This document shows positions 6,670 to 34,493 of a stretch of DNA of 34,493 bases, piece after piece. Every line of letters starts with the position of its first letter. The stretch's first letter is position 1. Under the pieces are notes generated by a model. The model was not told the origin of the DNA and did no database searches. It saw nothing but the letters and a program-made list of their open reading frames with translations. The position numbers and the translations under genes are program-made. Origin of the DNA: Candidatus Gastranaerophilales bacterium (GTDB lineage Bacteria; Cyanobacteriota; Vampirovibrionia; Gastranaerophilales; Gastranaerophilaceae); assembly GCA_944325655.1 (NCBI GenBank), contig CALVAW010000018.1, positions 1 to 34,493 of the forward strand, read 5' to 3'.

Positions 6670-9600
6670 TTATTCGTTTTCTTCTTCGTCTTTATCATCA
6701 GTTTTGTTATCTTGTCCAAGATCTACCTTGGCCGCTGCTGACATTATGTTTGATGTTTGGTCAACAGTGTTATCTGAAACTTTAGAAGTTTTAGAGATTT
6801 CAACCTGTTCTCTCGGAAGTTTAATTTGATTGATTAAAGAATCAATATTGTCATCACTCGGATCTACCGGTGGCGGTTCAGGACATGGTTCTTCTTCAAC
6901 CGGTCTGTCATAAACTAAGATAAAGTCTTCGTTTGTATCTCCAAAGTTAATTGTATGTTTTTCATATACATCAATTACTCCGTCATCTGTTGTAACTTGC
7001 CCTTTAACATAGTTTCCGGTGTAATCGAAATCAGTCGGATCTTTTGCAAAGTCTTTATCTTGATTGAAGCCCATATAGTCTCTTACTTCTATATAGCCTT
7101 TTGACGGAGTATTTTCCGGAAGACCCGCTAACTGTTCTTTTGTTAGAGTGGTATCCGATGCATACATCTTATCATTTGCATCCGTAAACAATTTATCAGT
7201 TATGATTTTAGAAACTGCAAGTTCATTATCAACAGCATTGATGTGTACTTCCGGTCCTTCATATTGTTTTGAATTTTCATCCCATTTTTGAGTACCTGAT
7301 AAATAGTATCCTTCTTTGAAGTGGCCTCCTGTAGGATCTTTGTCAAGTTTTTCAACATTTTGTGCAACCATTTCAACACCGGCATCTTTATTGTTAGCAT
7401 TTTTCAAGTCAACTACTATGCTGCCGTTTGTAGGATCATTAGCATCTTTTACCGTTTCTGTTGTAATTTTTAATTTGGTTTTGTTTACATCAAGAACGGT
7501 TTTACCTGTACCTGTTCTGTCGGTTGATACGCTTTGCGGGAATTTATGTGTTTTTTCAGCAACATCTGCAGCAGCTGTTCCGGTAACATCATTTGTTGTA
7601 ACGTCCCCGTTAGCAAATATTTCAGTTGTTGTATTTTTTGCATTAGCAGTTGCTTGTTTAATTGTTAAGTTGTTCATAATTACATCATGACCGGATTCAA
7701 TAAAGTTTTCCGGAGCTTCAAATGATGAATTGACAAATTGAATATCGCCTTGGGTGTAGAATTTATTGGCACCGCCTGCAATGTAATCAACATTTACTGA
7801 TTTTAGAGAATCTTGGCTTGTGAAAGTATTATCTCCTTTTGCATTAAATGTTAATCTGTCTCCATATTCAAGAATCGGCATTGTTGTTTTTTCTGCATTA
7901 ATGTCGCCGCCTGTTGATGTTATATACATATCTGCACCTGAAGCTATTTTAACTGAGTTATCAATGTTGATGTTTTCAGCTCCTTGTTTTCCGAATGTAA
8001 TTGTTTCATAAGCTTCAAGGGTTACATCGTTGCCGCCGTTTACTATTGAATTATCTTTAACATACATACCGCCTTTTGTAGCTTCCGCTTTCAGGTTTCT
8101 GTCTGCTTTTAAGGTTGAATTATCGATTTTTACATCGCCTTTTTTAGACAATAAATTAATGTCGTTATTTGTGTGAACATTTGATGTATTCGTCACTTTT
8201 ACATCGCCTTCGGTTGATGTGACATTGAGATTATTAGCATCAGCTGTGTTTAATGTGATTTTATAGTTTATTGCATCTGCTGTTCCATCATCTACAAGAG
8301 TGCCATCTTCATTTCTGTCAAATTTAAGACTGTAAGCAGCTCTTTTCATTGTAGCGTTGTCAAGCGAGAAGTTGCCGTTTGTTTCAAGATTAATATCTCC
8401 GCCAACTTTTCCGTCTGCTTGCAGCGGGCTAAATGTTGAATTGTTTGCAACTGTGACGTTATTTAAACCTGTTGTTCCGTCGTTATAGAATTTGATTTCA
8501 TCATAAACAAGCGATGAGTTATCAATTAGAGTATTGGAACCTTGGATTGATAATTTTCCGTCGGTTGCAATTAATGTTTGATTATTTCCATTGTTATCAA
8601 GGTCGCTGGAGATAATTACATTACCTGCAAGTGAACCATCTGAATATGCGGATAACATATCAATATCTCCGGTTGCATTAACAACAGAGTTATGAACTTT
8701 TACTTCGCCTGCACCTGCAAGGGTTACATTTGTAATATCATTTTGATCTACGGTATTACTTGCTTGTATTAAAGAGTTATTTACTTCAACTTTGTCTACC
8801 GATTGGACGTAAGCATCTCCTTTTGCAAGAACTTTTGAATTATCTATTTTTGCCTTACCGCCATAAGAGAAAATTCTTACTGCGCCTGCATTGCTGCCAT
8901 CTGGTTGATCTTTAGAGCCTGCAGAAATTACAAGAGAATCTTTTACCGTTACATCTTTTCCGGCTGTAATAAATACTTCACCACCATTTTGTCCTTCGGT
9001 TGTTAATGTGTTTCCGTTTTTATCTTTAACAGTTGTATTTATTGATTCAAGACGTGAATTATCAACCAATACATCTTGTGAGCCGACAATCATAATGTCG
9101 CCGTTTTCTTTATTTATTAATTTTGTACCTTTTATGATCGAATTAGAAATTTTAATATCAGATCCGGCTGCATTTGATTTGTTTATAATATGAACATCCC
9201 CTGATCTGATTGCTGTTTCATCAGGCGCTAAACCTGAATTATCTATTGAAATATTTCTTTGAACGTCATTTGCCGTATCTTCAGCTACTTGGAATGTATC
9301 AAGATAACCGTTTGCAAGATAATCAAATGTAACACCGTCAGCTGTAATCAATCTAACATTTGAGAATGATTGAGAGTTGTCTGATGTAATATAGTTGTGA
9401 TTATTTCCCGTTCTGATTAAAGAATCTTTGTATTTTATGTTATCGGAAATTATAGCAATTGATTTATTTGGGTTTGCATTGTTTAAAGTACCGTCTTCAT
9501 TGAAGTGAGCAAATGTTGTTCCATCAAGATTAACAAATGTTTCGCCTTTCTTGAAAGTTAAACCTGCTTCTTCAAAGGCATCTGTATAATTTGAATCAAA

Positions 9601-10179
9601 CGTAATTGAACCATATCTTCTGTTTTCACCATTTACTTCAGGTGTCGGCGATAATTTATTTAAAACGCCTGATTGATAAGCTGATAATTGTGATTCGGTC
9701 ATATCTTTCAGGTTTTTTGCACCTTTAAAATCAAATGTGGAAACAGTGAAAGAATTTAAGTCAACCATTGAACCTGCACCAAACATTACACCTGCAGGGT
9801 TGATTAATATTACCTTGCCTGTTGCGGCAAAAGAGTCGCAACTACCGCCATTTATACATGAATTAGTCAATTTACCTTGAATATCAGACATCTTTCCGCC
9901 TAAAACACGGTTGATGACTGTTTGTGATAACCCTGAAAAACCAAAGTTAACATGTTCGCCTCTGCCTACGGAGAAGTCATTCCAATCAACCTGTCCCACT
10001 GCACCATGCTGTCCGCCTGTAATATTTACGTCAAGTCTGTTATCCGATGTACCAAAACCAATATTTCCGGTATTGCCGATAACATTGTCTACAGATGCGC
10101 CAAAGGCTGTTGCACCGGATATTGATAAGAAAGCCAGCATAGCGGTAAAGGCTGTAATTTTCTTCTTAAATTGACTCAT
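6670..10179 (-). CDS. Two-partner secretion exoprotein (TpsA, filamentous haemagglutinin-like)
   Basis: A 1169-residue secreted protein. Residues 1-28 are a Sec signal peptide (basic start, hydrophobic core, GATAFGA). Residues of about 28-280 form the TPS (haemagglutination activity) domain, with GQVDWNDFSVGRGEHVNF, NRV at 90-92 and KVILINPAGVMFG at 122-134, the last a variant of the family NPNGI motif. The rest is repetitive beta-helix-type sequence with many short units such as VDNSRLES, VKDSLVISAG, IDNSKVLAKG and VNNSLIQAS. An acidic, proline-containing tail (EEEPCPEPPPVDPSDDN onwards) ends the protein. TPS proteins are exported by a TpsB pore and act as adhesins or toxins; no toxin module is visible here. 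Cys108 and Cys114 in the TPS domain may form a disulfide. AAGGGA lies eight bases before the ATG. It is divergent from its partner. Confidence 0.92.
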   Translation of the reverse strand: MSQFKKKITAFTAMLAFLSISGATAFGASVDNVIGNTGNIGFGTSDNRLDVNITGGQHGAVGQVDWNDFSVGRGEHVNFGFSGLSQTVINRVLGGKMSDIQGKLTNSCINGGSCDSFAATGKVILINPAGVMFGAGSMVDLNSFTVSTFDFKGAKNLKDMTESQLSAYQSGVLNKLSPTPEVNGENRRYGSITFDSNYTDAFEEAGLTFKKGETFVNLDGTTFAHFNEDGTLNNANPNKSIAIISDNIKYKDSLIRTGNNHNYITSDNSQSFSNVRLITADGVTFDYLANGYLDTFQVAEDTANDVQRNISIDNSGLAPDETAIRSGDVHIINKSNAAGSDIKISNSIIKGTKLINKENGDIMIVGSQDVLVDNSRLESINTTVKDKNGNTLTTEGQNGGEVFITAGKDVTVKDSLVISAGSKDQPDGSNAGAVRIFSYGGKAKIDNSKVLAKGDAYVQSVDKVEVNNSLIQASNTVDQNDITNVTLAGAGEVKVHNSVVNATGDIDMLSAYSDGSLAGNVIISSDLDNNGNNQTLIATDGKLSIQGSNTLIDNSSLVYDEIKFYNDGTTGLNNVTVANNSTFSPLQADGKVGGDINLETNGNFSLDNATMKRAAYSLKFDRNEDGTLVDDGTADAINYKITLNTADANNLNVTSTEGDVKVTNTSNVHTNNDINLLSKKGDVKIDNSTLKADRNLKAEATKGGMYVKDNSIVNGGNDVTLEAYETITFGKQGAENINIDNSVKIASGADMYITSTGGDINAEKTTMPILEYGDRLTFNAKGDNTFTSQDSLKSVNVDYIAGGANKFYTQGDIQFVNSSFEAPENFIESGHDVIMNNLTIKQATANAKNTTTEIFANGDVTTNDVTGTAAADVAEKTHKFPQSVSTDRTGTGKTVLDVNKTKLKITTETVKDANDPTNGSIVVDLKNANNKDAGVEMVAQNVEKLDKDPTGGHFKEGYYLSGTQKWDENSKQYEGPEVHINAVDNELAVSKIITDKLFTDANDKMYASDTTLTKEQLAGLPENTPSKGYIEVRDYMGFNQDKDFAKDPTDFDYTGNYVKGQVTTDDGVIDVYEKHTINFGDTNEDFILVYDRPVEEEPCPEPPPVDPSDDNIDSLINQIKLPREQVEISKTSKVSDNTVDQTSNIMSAAAKVDLGQDNKTDDKDEEENE

Positions 10180-10555
10180 TATAGTTCCCTTTCATAAATA
10201 CAATCTTTCTTTGCATCCATATGCTTATATAGTATAAAAACCACATAGGGGGTAAAATTTTTCAGATACAATACTTAACTTTACAAAAATTTACATTATA
10301 TTTTTGTAAAAATGGTAACAGAAAAAAAATTTTAAATCAATAAACTATATAAGTTTTATATAATATAATATATACGAATTTTATAAAATTTAACATATTG
10401 ACAAAAATGTTTCATTCTTTTCTTTTTATAGTAAGATAAAAATCATCAATATAATTTATTGTTATCATGCAAAAGTTGTTTTATGATAGTATTGCACGTT
10501 TTATAATTTATTATTGTGCAAGTTCCACAGTTTAAGATAAAGGAATTTAAGAAAA
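10180..10555. promoter_or_regulatory. Divergent control region between tpsA-like and tpsB-like genes
   Basis: This 376-base, very AT-rich gap has no gene. It holds a perfect inverted repeat, TTTACAAAAAT (10280-10290) and ATTTTTGTAAA (10300-10310), nearer the tpsA side. On the tpsB side there is a TATAAT at 10502-10507, flanked by TTGCAC (10492-10497) and GTGCAA (10516-10521), and a looser pair TATCAT/ATGATA around 10464-10488. The TATAAT with TTTTAT 17 bases upstream is the best tpsB promoter candidate. The flanking pairs look like repressor or activator sites. These roles are inferred. Confidence 0.5.
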
Positions 10556-12334
10556 GTGCAAAAGATTGATTTTCACAAGTTTAAAGTTAGTTCAATATTA
10601 CTGGCTTTGTGTTTGTTTATTTCTTCCCCAAGTGCAATTGCCGGTCCGGAAGCCGGTTCAAATCTTATACCGAATGGTATAGGAAATTTTGATGCAGGTG
10701 TAATTGACCAAACAAACTTGCGTCAAATTAAAGACTATGAACAAAAAATCAGAGATGACAGAGAAGAAGAGCACCTTGAAGAAAAAATTGAGATGAATAA
10801 GGAAATGAAGGATAAAATGAAAGACCTTCCGAATAAAGAGGTTAGTTTTACCCTTAATTCAATTCATATAACCGGAAATACGGAATATACGGAAGAACAA
10901 TTATTGAATTTGGTTTGCCAGAGAATAGGTGATGTAGTTACCATTAATGATCTTATAGGTATGGCAAATGCAATTACGGAATTTTATCAAAAGAACGGCT
11001 ATATATCGACAACAGCATATTTGCCTCCTCAAAAAGTAGAAGACGGAAATGTTGAAATTGTTGTTCTTGAAGGTAAATATGGAAATATTACAATTGAAGG
11101 CAATAAATGGGCGAGAAAGAAATATTTAAGCGCCACTTTTTTGAAGGATAAAAATATACAAGAAGATAAAGTATTAAATGTTGCCGATATACAAGAATCT
11201 TTGCGTGAATTAAATGCAACTGATTATATTAAAGGTGCGGTTGCTCTTCAAGATAATGAAGATTCTGAACAATATACAGATCTTACATTGAACGTTAAAG
11301 ACAGATTTCCTATAGACTTTGATTTTCGTTTTGATAACCAAGGTCGTTCTGCTGTCGGTTTGAATCGTTTTGTAATATTTGCCGGAATGAGTAATTTAAC
11401 CGGTTTTGGCGATCAGATTTTGTCTACAACTTCTTTGGCAAGAAGTTCTATAGGGCAAGGTGTATTTTATTCGGTTCCCATAGGTCGTCATGAAACAAAA
11501 TTGAATTTAGGTTATTCTTATTCGGGTACAAAACTTGACAGAGGTGAATTGAAAGATTTTGATGTCAAGGGTAAATCCCACAATTTCTATATAGATTTAT
11601 CAAGAAGACTTATTAAGACTGAAAACTATAAATTATACGGTGATATAGCTTTTGATATGAGAAATACAAATACGACTTTAAGAGGTTATGATTTGTATGG
11701 TTACAGGACAAGAGCTATTAAATTAAATTTAACAAATGTAAAAGATGATTTTTACGGTAAATGGTTCGGTAATATCGGTATAGCTAAAGGTATTGATATA
11801 TTTGGTGCTTCAAATGATTTATACGGATATTATTCAAAAGAAACTCCGACAAACAGAATGGTTAAAATTCAGGCTTCAATTGCAAGATTACAAGTTTTGC
11901 CTTGGAGAATGATGGGTATATTTACTGCTAACGGTCAATGGGTAAACAGAAATGTTTGGTACTCGGATAAAATGCAAATTGGTGGTATTTCATCTGTCAG
12001 AGGTTTTGAAGAAGGTTATTTCTTAAGAGATTATGGTGTGACCGCTTCCGCTGAGTTAAGAGCTCCTGTGCCATTTTTAAATCATTTACCTGAAAAATTG
12101 AGATTCATCGATGATTCTATCAGACTGGCTGCTTTTTGTGATATGGGTTGGTTTGGTGATTATGGTATCGGAATGCCGAGTTCAAGTTTTGTAATGAGTG
12201 TCGGCGGCGGTTTGGTTTTGAAAATGACCAGATATTTATCAGGTAACGTATATTTTGGTATTCCTATTGTTAATAAACCTGATGATGCTTCAAGTTTCAG
12301 AGTTCACTTTATGATTACATCAAACATATTATAA
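10556..12334 (+). CDS. Two-partner secretion outer-membrane transporter (TpsB, FhaC/ShlB-like)
   Basis: A 592-residue outer-membrane pore that recognises and exports the divergent TpsA. It starts with GTG at 10556 (AAAGGA about 11 bases upstream) and an evident signal peptide to about residue 29 (ILLALCLFISSPSAIAG). A charged helix follows (about 60-95), then two POTRA domains: the first from SIHITGNTEYTEEQLL with FYQKNGYISTTAYLPPQ, the second with VEIVVLEGKYGNITIEGN. A beta-barrel of about 350 residues with alternating strands completes it. SVRGFEEGYFLRDYG at about 479-493 is the conserved VRG(Y/F) loop 6 motif of the Omp85/TpsB superfamily. The last residue is Leu rather than the usual Phe. 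It ends at a good terminator. Confidence 0.93.
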   Translation: MQKIDFHKFKVSSILLALCLFISSPSAIAGPEAGSNLIPNGIGNFDAGVIDQTNLRQIKDYEQKIRDDREEEHLEEKIEMNKEMKDKMKDLPNKEVSFTLNSIHITGNTEYTEEQLLNLVCQRIGDVVTINDLIGMANAITEFYQKNGYISTTAYLPPQKVEDGNVEIVVLEGKYGNITIEGNKWARKKYLSATFLKDKNIQEDKVLNVADIQESLRELNATDYIKGAVALQDNEDSEQYTDLTLNVKDRFPIDFDFRFDNQGRSAVGLNRFVIFAGMSNLTGFGDQILSTTSLARSSIGQGVFYSVPIGRHETKLNLGYSYSGTKLDRGELKDFDVKGKSHNFYIDLSRRLIKTENYKLYGDIAFDMRNTNTTLRGYDLYGYRTRAIKLNLTNVKDDFYGKWFGNIGIAKGIDIFGASNDLYGYYSKETPTNRMVKIQASIARLQVLPWRMMGIFTANGQWVNRNVWYSDKMQIGGISSVRGFEEGYFLRDYGVTASAELRAPVPFLNHLPEKLRFIDDSIRLAAFCDMGWFGDYGIGMPSSSFVMSVGGGLVLKMTRYLSGNVYFGIPIVNKPDDASSFRVHFMITSNIL

Positions 12335-33332: not shown

Positions 33333-34028
33333 CTAGTACATTTCTATTATTTTATTAATTGAGTTTTTAGCAAGTTCAAAAATTTCGTCCATTTGTTTTT
33401 TTTCAAACGGCAGTCCTTCTGCTGTGGTTTGAAATTCAATTATTTTTCCTGACTTACTTAATACAATGTTTGAATCTGCCTGAGCCGAGGAATCTTCTTC
33501 GTAGCATAAGTCAACCATAACTTCATTGTCTACTATTCCCGCTGAAATTGCAGCGATTGGTTCTATTATTGGATTTTTTTCAATTAATTTTTCTTTTAAT
33601 AATTTTTCAACCATATCATTGACTGCTGCAAAAGCTCCGCAAATTGATGCTGTTCTTGTTCCTCCGTCCGCTTGCAATACATCTGCGTCAATTATAAATG
33701 TTTTTCCTTTTATTAGTTTCAAATCAATGCAAGAACGCAAGGAGCGTCCGATTAGTCTTTGTATTTCTTGAGTTCTGCCGGATAGTTTTGTTCTTTCTCT
33801 TTGACATCTTATGTTTGTGCTTTGCGGAAGCAAAGAATATTCTGCAGTGAGCCATCCTTGATCGGATTCTTTATCCATCCATTTTGGTATTGTATTTTCC
33901 CAATTGGCACACACCAGAACTTTTGTATTACCAAATTCAACTAACACAGACCCCGGTGAGTGGTTTGTGTAGTTATGAGTGAATTTAATATGTCTTAATT
34001 CGTTGTTTTTTCTGTTATCTTTTCTCAT
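33333..34028 (-). CDS. rph: Ribonuclease PH
   Basis: A 231-residue phosphorolytic 3'-exoribonuclease that trims the 3' ends of tRNA precursors as a hexamer. It has GSVLVEFGNTKVLVCANWE at the N-terminus, the central GWLTAEYSLLPQSTNIR with the R-E block SGRTQEIQRLIGRSLRS, the phosphate/metal-site sequence IDADVLQADGGTRTASICGAF, and EFQTTAEGLPF near the C-terminus. Length is close to the family norm. GAGG lies five bases before the ATG. In the final block, AQADSNIVLSKSGKIIEFQTTAEG replaces the usual DMNVVMTG..FVEVQGTAEG, a divergent but alignable region. Confidence 0.96.
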   Translation of the reverse strand: MRKDNRKNNELRHIKFTHNYTNHSPGSVLVEFGNTKVLVCANWENTIPKWMDKESDQGWLTAEYSLLPQSTNIRCQRERTKLSGRTQEIQRLIGRSLRSCIDLKLIKGKTFIIDADVLQADGGTRTASICGAFAAVNDMVEKLLKEKLIEKNPIIEPIAAISAGIVDNEVMVDLCYEEDSSAQADSNIVLSKSGKIIEFQTTAEGLPFEKKQMDEIFELAKNSINKIIEMY

Positions 34029-34161
34029 TTTTTCCTCTTTTTTTAATATATTAACATATTTTGGTAATTTTTCTTATTAAAAATTATCACAAAATCTAAT
34101 TAAAAATGAAAGAAAAAAATTTATATTAATAATGTAAATCCTCAACTCTTCTGATTGCTAT
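34029..34161. other. AT-rich gap upstream of rph
   Basis: No gene is visible in this stretch. TATATTAATAAT near 34121-34132 on the plus strand could be a -10 region for a short transcript ending at the terminator at 34162-34185, giving an RNA of about 50-60 bases, but there is no good -35 box. Confidence 0.25.
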
Positions 34162-34185
34162 GCCCTGTTTATCAGGGCTTTTTTT
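34162..34185 (+). terminator. Rho-independent terminator with no obvious upstream gene
   Basis: GCCCTG (34162-34167) and CAGGGC (34173-34178) form a stem with the loop TTTAT, followed by seven T. The nearest plus-strand gene, the sigma factor, ends 1.4 kb upstream at its own terminator, so this probably ends a small unannotated RNA or belongs to the repeat element. Confidence 0.7.
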
Positions 34186-34191
34186 GCACCC

Positions 34192-34237
34192 GAGTCGAGC
34201 GAGTTTAGCGACAGCTTAACGAGCGAAGACGAGGGCA
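34192..34237 (+). repeat. 46-base direct repeat, copy 1
   Basis: This 46-base segment (GAGTCGAGCGAG... ending GACGAGGGCA) is identical to 34300-34345, 108 bases further on. It is far richer in GC than its surroundings and contains GTTTAGC-GACA-GCTTAAC, a near-perfect small hairpin. Confidence 0.85.
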
Positions 34238-34299
34238 TAGGTGTGTGCAGCACGAAGGCAGGAGCGATGAGCTCATGCCGAGTGCGTAACCGTACCATA

Positions 34300-34345
34300 G
34301 AGTCGAGCGAGTTTAGCGACAGCTTAACGAGCGAAGACGAGGGCA
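34300..34345 (+). repeat. 46-base direct repeat, copy 2
   Basis: Exact copy of 34192-34237. A diverged third copy seems to start near 34430 (TCGAGCAAACGAACGACAGC, then GTAAGCGATAG). The minus-strand open frame across both copies repeats the peptide MPSSSLVKLSLNSLDS and is best read as a by-product of the repeat, not a gene. Confidence 0.85.
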
Positions 34346-34369
34346 AACAAAAAGCGTGTGGAGCTTGAA

Positions 34370-34396
34370 GTTATCAAACCGTTGAGGTTTGATAAC
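34370..34396. repeat. Perfect hairpin within the repeat region
   Basis: GTTATCAAACC (34370-34380) and GGTTTGATAAC (34386-34396) are exact reverse complements around a five-base loop. A second small palindrome, ATCCTA/TAGGAT, is at 34409-34414 and 34423-34428. The 34186-34493 stretch otherwise shows no gene; it looks like an intergenic repeat element with RNA-folding potential. Confidence 0.75.
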
Positions 34397-34493
34397 AAAA
34401 GCGCAACCATCCTATAGCGACGTAGGATAATCGAGCAAACGAACGACAGCGTAAGCGATAGTGAAGTCTTGCGAGATACCCGCAGGAGCAAAA

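Follow-up and report, generated by a model that had tools for sequence, protein, structure and literature searches.

The Rickettsia palindromic elements (RPEs) are, according to the account in PMC2229807, lineage-specific stem-loop repeats of 105–146 bp, which are found between genes and, in frame, within protein genes. The same account places RPEs in two RNA genes, those for tmRNA and RNase P (M1) RNA (PMC2229807). Bacterial MITEs, such as Correia/NEMIS, ERIC, RUP and YPAL, are described there as small, non-autonomous, dispersed, hairpin-forming sequences that are mainly intergenic (PMC2229807). The repeats from Gastranaerophilales described below are likewise small, non-autonomous, dispersed, hairpin-forming and mainly intergenic. 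To our knowledge, no transposase is known for RPEs.

REP/BIME sequences are dispersed palindromic repeats with mismatched stems. The Gastranaerophilales repeats are also dispersed and palindromic and have mismatched stems, but they form longer composite units. In cyanobacteria, STRR repeats were reportedly described by Vioque in 1997 in the rnpB gene of heterocyst-forming species. STRRs are tandem runs of very short units, whereas the repeats described here consist of structured modules, 48 to 150 nt in length, although they too occur within an RNase P RNA gene of cyanobacteria.

The DNA analysed, termed the window, is the whole 34,493-nt contig CALVAW010000018.1 (C18) of a Candidatus Gastranaerophilales bacterium (G000; GCA_944325655.1), whose assembly comprises 1,688,995 bases in 58 contigs and is 98.8% complete. 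The final 307 bases of the window (34187–34493) contain an array of repeats. This array is quite probably made of non-autonomous dispersed repeat modules (A1, A2, X and B), which work like RPEs and are tolerated because their RNA folds on its own. The likeness to RPEs is one of habits and not of sequence comparison, and by this analogy it appears well supported: the element is dispersed, lineage-restricted and about 100–150 bp long (with matches in 26 of 28 genus genomes, G000 included, by BLAST with the window array), it forms stem-loops, it is inserted in frame in a protein gene (one sense-strand case, compared to many in Rickettsia), and it is inserted in RNase P RNA. The Gastranaerophilales repeats differ from RPEs in belonging to another phylum, in forming tandem and composite arrays, which combine four or more modules and show tandem G.A mismatches and GNNGA loops, and in their flanking duplications and duplications of tRNA 5′ parts. 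RPEs are known for invading proteins and RNase P RNA, and an apparently independent family would show the same habits in a distant phylum.

Layout of the array

The array is preceded by the gene rph (RNase PH; 33333–34028, − strand; Pfam RNase_PH and RNase_PH_C) and by a conserved non-coding element at 34140–34185 (+ strand), whose core CAACTCTTCTGATT is found in all 26 rph loci of the genus. A terminator scan places an intrinsic terminator at the end of this element (34162–34185), and the array begins directly behind its T-run. GC content is 0.515 in 34187–34493 compared to 0.312 before it, where the highest 307-bp stretch reaches 0.469. The original prediction, which had been made from the letters of the window, described a GC-rich stretch with no evident gene right after a terminator, in which an exact direct repeat, a perfect hairpin and a small palindrome occur and which continues past the window edge. 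All of these features are real. Its suggestion that the stretch may be an origin of small RNA is unsupported for the repeat itself, which begins past the terminator of the separate conserved element directly upstream.

Two dispersed repeat units are found in the array: A, which consists of the hairpins A1 and A2, and B, which is about 147 bp long. The modules follow one another in the order A1-A2-A1-X-B, and a second contig of the same genome, C23, adds further X-B; the periods in the window and C23 are 108 bp for A and about 147 bp for B. A1 is a 48-nt hairpin in which short helices are parted by tandem G.A mismatches (CCC-GA-GUC-GA-GC-GA-stem). The first copy, at 34188–34235 (+ strand), scores 72.7 bits with the A1 covariance model and carries the first copy of the exact 46-base repeat (34192–34237), while the second, at 34294–34342 (+ strand; 55.2 bits), also found by repeat search, carries most of the other (34300–34345), at a spacing of 108. 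With up to three mismatches allowed, a 20-base piece of this 46-mer is matched twice in the window, and no match arises in 100 shuffles. A diverged third copy had also been claimed; by repeat search and by the A1 model, however, no more than two A1 copies are found in the window, and the look-alike around 34432–34466 is, in our reading, probably the inner hairpin of the different unit B.

Between both A1 copies lies A2, the second hairpin module of unit A (34236–34299, + strand; GGTGTGTG, hairpin, AACCGTACC), which was delimited by comparison with other A copies, the covariation analysis covering A1 and B. The small palindrome is ATGAGCTCAT at 34267–34276. X, the first part of the X+B unit, spans 34346–34416 (+ strand) and contains the 11-bp hairpin GTTATCAAACC-GTTGA-GGTTTGATAAC at 34370–34396, whose loop fits the GNNGA of other copies. 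The B core follows at 34417–34489 (+ strand) as GCGACGTAGGATAATCGAG-variable hairpin-CGAGATACCCGCAGGAGC, and is supported by covariation and by a B covariance model match of 90.9 bits at C18:34413–34493. The general layout of B is GCGACGTAGGATAATYGAG-hairpin-YGARATACCCACAGGAGC, preceded by the hairpin module X. A CRISPR-like reading of the array as repeats and spacers was dropped, as the “spacers” themselves form a homologous family.

The last 149 bases of C18 (34345–34493) recur exactly at C23:75–223, beyond which C23 carries further B sequence and then ilvC, identified by Pfam as ketol-acid reductoisomerase. In nine other genomes of the genus, the rph-side terminator is followed after 107–115 nt by a second conserved element, which is also found on C23 ahead of ilvC. 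It is therefore most likely that the array in the own genome lies between rph (C18) and ilvC (C23).

Copies and taxonomic range

The modules are multi-copy, occur in tandem and composite arrays, and have both filled and empty orthologous sites. In G000, 11 A1 model matches were counted on C18, C7, C13, C9 and C57, and four B-core model matches on C18, C23 and C40; one more match, of 32 bases and at the end of C15, came from BLAST. The repeat is thus not a single occurrence, and the prediction of a lineage-specific mobile or REP-like intergenic element is supported by dispersed copies in the own genome and genus and by the filled and empty sites.

With stricter filters, which lose weak matches, the B model matched 21 of 97 genomes in a search of the family; the wider searches gave 37 of 240 genomes for the class and 37 of 292 for the phylum. 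In the class search, 36 of the 37 positive genomes belong to the own family, where related repeats also occur in other genera, and one to a second family of the order. The A1 model matched 14 of the 240 class genomes. In a collection of named genomes, the B-core pattern was found in at least 108 stretches, and among the matches listed, the titles read Candidatus Gastranaerophilales, Candidatus Galligastranaerophilus, Melainabacteria, Cyanobacteria, or bacteria without further name. The B pattern is also present on three viral contigs, and nothing in a phage collection matched at E 1e-5. In the phylum search, no more than three B model matches fell outside the order, all of them weak (25–29 bits). 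As these are located in open frames (of 117, 279 and 298 codons), they were taken as chance, the first less surely. Judged by these searches, the repeat family appears to be found only in Gastranaerophilales.

Searches of Rfam returned no known family: the window end gave three weak matches (E 0.41–0.78) under the gathering scores, and nine element loci, at E up to 0.1, gave no matches other than to RNase P, a tRNA and, weakly, cobalamin. A literature search on Gastranaerophilales or Melainabacteria found no account of these repeats, most results being off topic, which is weak evidence that the family is undescribed so far.

Conservation of the fold

A1 and B carry clear compensatory changes, and the sense strand is conserved as a fold. 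Fifteen own-genome loci overlapping others were left out before counting. For B, 151 matches were reduced to 143 complete ones and, after removal of identical copies, to 97. In the RNAalifold structure of these 97 distinct copies, 99.1% of 1067 cells are paired and 129 cells are changed on both sides, with a covariation score of 0.322, compared to 0.092 for shuffles and no more than 0.064 on sliding. The 5′ block of B is conserved partly by construction, as most loci were found with a pattern there, while its partner block and the hairpin are free. For A1, 72 matches yielded 23 that fit the expression used, from which one near-identical row was removed; the ends were set by hand, and the structure tested was the one named from the window copy. 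Among these 22 copies, 97.1% of 307 cells are paired, 46 cells are double-changed, and the covariation score is 0.422 compared to 0.208 in shuffles. Two of five measures for A1 were not clearly above shuffles, with the number of both-side-changed pairs reached by 70 of 500 and that of further pair types by 500 of 500.

A1 folds better on the + strand, with z −4.63 compared to −2.40 on the − strand. A1 and A2 together give z −5.07, and one X+B copy gives z −5.27; one B copy with a short flank (L029) folds unremarkably (z −0.55). The best hairpins upstream of B have different stems and a common loop: among 83 distinct hairpins, 30 have other loop sizes, and 37 of the 53 five-base loops read GNNGA, a count made without a shuffled control and with a finder that slightly favoured five-base loops.

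A conserved, stranded fold would also be expected if the hairpins were selected regulatory RNA modules, which act in cis on mRNA or pre-tRNA (on stability, processing or translation of the next gene) and spread by recruitment. Besides covariation and the shared loop, this explanation can draw on the orientation of the elements. Among 150 clusters, 133 remained after two mixed-strand clusters and repeated ones had been removed, and 85 of these had an upstream gene, genes being taken crudely as open reading frames of 100 aa or more that lie within 300 bp. The upstream gene is on the same strand as the element in 66 of the 85 and on the opposite strand in 19, a count that is inflated by orthologous loci, as are those of stop codons and flanking duplications given below, and for which the p-value of the strand bias is too small.

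It can also draw on the ends of some B copies, which lie 1–9 nt before the start of a same-strand open reading frame in seven loci (L052, L059, L082, L096, L115, L122 and L152). In L052, L082 and L096, B is read to end in AGGAG a few bases ahead of a long open reading frame, and the other four were placed by distance only. Such a B copy, found near a start codon in some orthologues, could hold a ribosome-binding site, and a repeat may here have been turned into one.

Against a regulatory explanation, orthologous sites differ in content and many are empty. Beside rph, an array is found at exactly the same place in six of 26 genus loci and is missing from 20; between rpsH and rplF, 11 of 26 loci judged by reading are filled, 14 (that of G000 among them) are empty and one is unread. 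Tolerance also explains better than regulation why modules are found within rnpB and within a protein gene. Selection as regulatory modules is therefore possible but rather unlikely as an account of the family, although a regulatory role of some copies is compatible with a selfish or neutral family. With clear covariation and many pairs of filled and empty sites, element movement and tolerance become testable.

Sites of probably tolerated insertion

The elements lie at positions that an insertion should harm little: close to stop codons, behind terminators, ahead of intact tRNAs and, within RNase P RNA, at the expected position of helix P3. For stop codons, 38 B units were used whose 5′ edge is set by a flanking duplication, seven of which had no open reading frame end nearby and were dropped. 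The unit starts −11 to +2 nt from a stop codon in 20 of the remaining 31, some of which are orthologues. Arrays that lie directly after a terminator-like T-run are found in the window and in L023, L025, L143 and L267. Of the eight loci that were checked for tRNA association, seven have an intact tRNA according to ARAGORN (for Arg, Leu, Pro or Met), the exception being L102. In L017, L029, L048, L062 and L076, among others, leader or tRNA 5′ sequence is duplicated upstream with elements nearby.

In rnpB, P1 and the conserved GAGGAAAGTCC lie 35–57 nt apart in 11 of 25 loci and 176–394 nt apart in 10 of 25, with 302 nt in G000. This distance was unmeasurable in the other four: in three, no P1 was found, as the contig starts at that point and the motif is preceded by element sequence, and in one the motif was not found. 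On reading, the long loci hold A- or B-type modules, and the A1 model matches all seven rnpB loci tried. The position of the insert is, in our reading, probably helix P3. The repeat family accounts for the 140 to 350 nucleotides by which some rnpB genes are longer. In the minimum-energy structure predicted for the RNase P RNA of G000, one long rod is closed by pairing between the 5′ half of the first A1 and the 3′ half of the last. One genome, G007, has two rnpB loci (L168 and L191), one of which does not differ from the G012 locus (L169) along the stretch shown, possibly due to contamination.

The protein gene lies in the interior of C13, a 45.5-kb contig, on which an array A1-A2-A1-A2-A1 is contained in frame in an open frame of 556 codons. 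This frame matches Peptidase_M50 (E 4.1e-52; RseP-type protease). Query residues 76 and 183 align to residues 67 and 74 of the chain of an Aquifex homologue, 9j82, so that the protease has about 100 residues extra, and the peptide EPSELSESLASEGE occurs in it three times. In a scan of 436 element matches, many of which are the same copy, this was the only sense-strand in-frame case (frame of at least 450 nt, open for at least 120 nt before and at least 90 nt after the match); the other open frames were antisense.

These sites suggest how the modules may persist. They would be selfish or neutral elements, kept because the RNA of the insert forms its own fold and leaves the host RNA functional. 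When insertion is accompanied by duplication, in an X-Y-X pattern, the outer halves of the duplicated hairpin would still pair around the insert, as predicted for the G000 RNase P RNA. The modules may be mobilised by an enzyme acting in trans, or by slippage and template switching at hairpins during replication.

Flanking duplications and mobility

The sequence before B is duplicated after B in 47 of 116 copies at a score of at least 20, compared to three of 116 in a control in which right flanks were swapped between loci; at a score of 15, the counts are 51 and six. The sample was not restricted by hairpin length; each B copy had 130 nt of flank on either side, and repeats were removed. The right copy starts 0–3 nt past B in 38 of the 47, and the duplications include earlier modules or tRNA 5′ parts. 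A target-site duplication of fixed length was not seen: the lengths range from 22 to 114 nt, and 69 of the 116 copies have no duplication at the threshold used. Rolling-circle or circular copies, a candidate reading of the right copies that start 0–3 nt past B, were put aside because host tRNA sequence is also duplicated (L029, L062 and L102).

A classical MITE, that is, a deletion derivative of an insertion sequence that is moved by a transposase in trans and has terminal inverted repeats and a fixed target duplication, would resemble the present modules in size, in copy number and in its bias towards intergenic positions, and would likewise have empty sites and duplicated flanks. It is an improbable explanation, given the variable duplications, which take in earlier modules or tRNA 5′ parts, and the terminal inverted repeats, none of which was common to the boundaries read, by eye only. 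In contrast to MITEs, no parent insertion sequence was found for the present family in enzyme searches that covered Y1_Tnp and RVT_1.

The same duplications, together with the sites at stop codons, terminator T-runs, tRNA 5′ parts and P3 of RNase P RNA, could instead reflect a structure-directed spread at hairpins or RNA ends, in which the target hairpin is duplicated, an X-Y-X pattern results and insertion is neutral by design. This is a speculative and doubtful proposal. If true, it would define mobile RNA-like elements of a new kind in bacteria, which have no protein of their own encoded in them.

The search for a mobilising enzyme covered two families. Y1_Tnp (RAYT) was found in one of 27 genus genomes and RVT_1 (reverse transcriptase) in 12 of 27, G000 having neither, so that the transposase link named in the original prediction was not found. 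Movement of REP/BIME-type elements by a RAYT (TnpA-REP) transposase, which recognises single-stranded hairpins, would suit the mismatched stems and the better folding of the + strand of A1, but it is very unlikely with Y1_Tnp in only that one genome and missing from the 98.8% complete G000, and with composite units of 108–150 bp that are unlike single REPs.

That the array is a mere local tandem repeat or a contig-end assembly artefact could be argued from the six of eight contig places with the repeat family in G000 that lie less than 500 bp from a contig end, but this is refuted by the dispersed copies, arrays being found also in the interior of C7 and C13 and at orthologous sites of other assemblies, and has next to no probability. 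Those six places suggest that the family tends to break the assembly, and it would account for several contig breaks in G000.

Neighbouring sequences

The rph-side element at 34140–34185 (L192–L217) is strongly conserved and ends in a terminator, and is a candidate small RNA or leader. The second conserved element, TTGTTCTCTTTTCCACTCCTTCCTCCATATGCAGATTTT and following, is located at about 405–490 of L016 (C23, before ilvC) and in L197, L201–L204, L206, L210, L216 and L217, with similar sequences in L136 and L151; its CUCCUUCCUCC part could pair with Shine-Dalgarno sequences. In the rpsH-rplF loci (L233–L257), a motif GGGTTAAATCG...CGATGCGTTCCCGCT...AGCAAAAGGAG precedes rplF in most readable loci and is a candidate ribosomal-protein leader structure. 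Elsewhere in the window, 6670–12334 encodes what we take, from the translation only, to be a large repetitive protein with a filamentous-haemagglutinin-like start, whose neighbour resembles a two-partner-secretion transporter.
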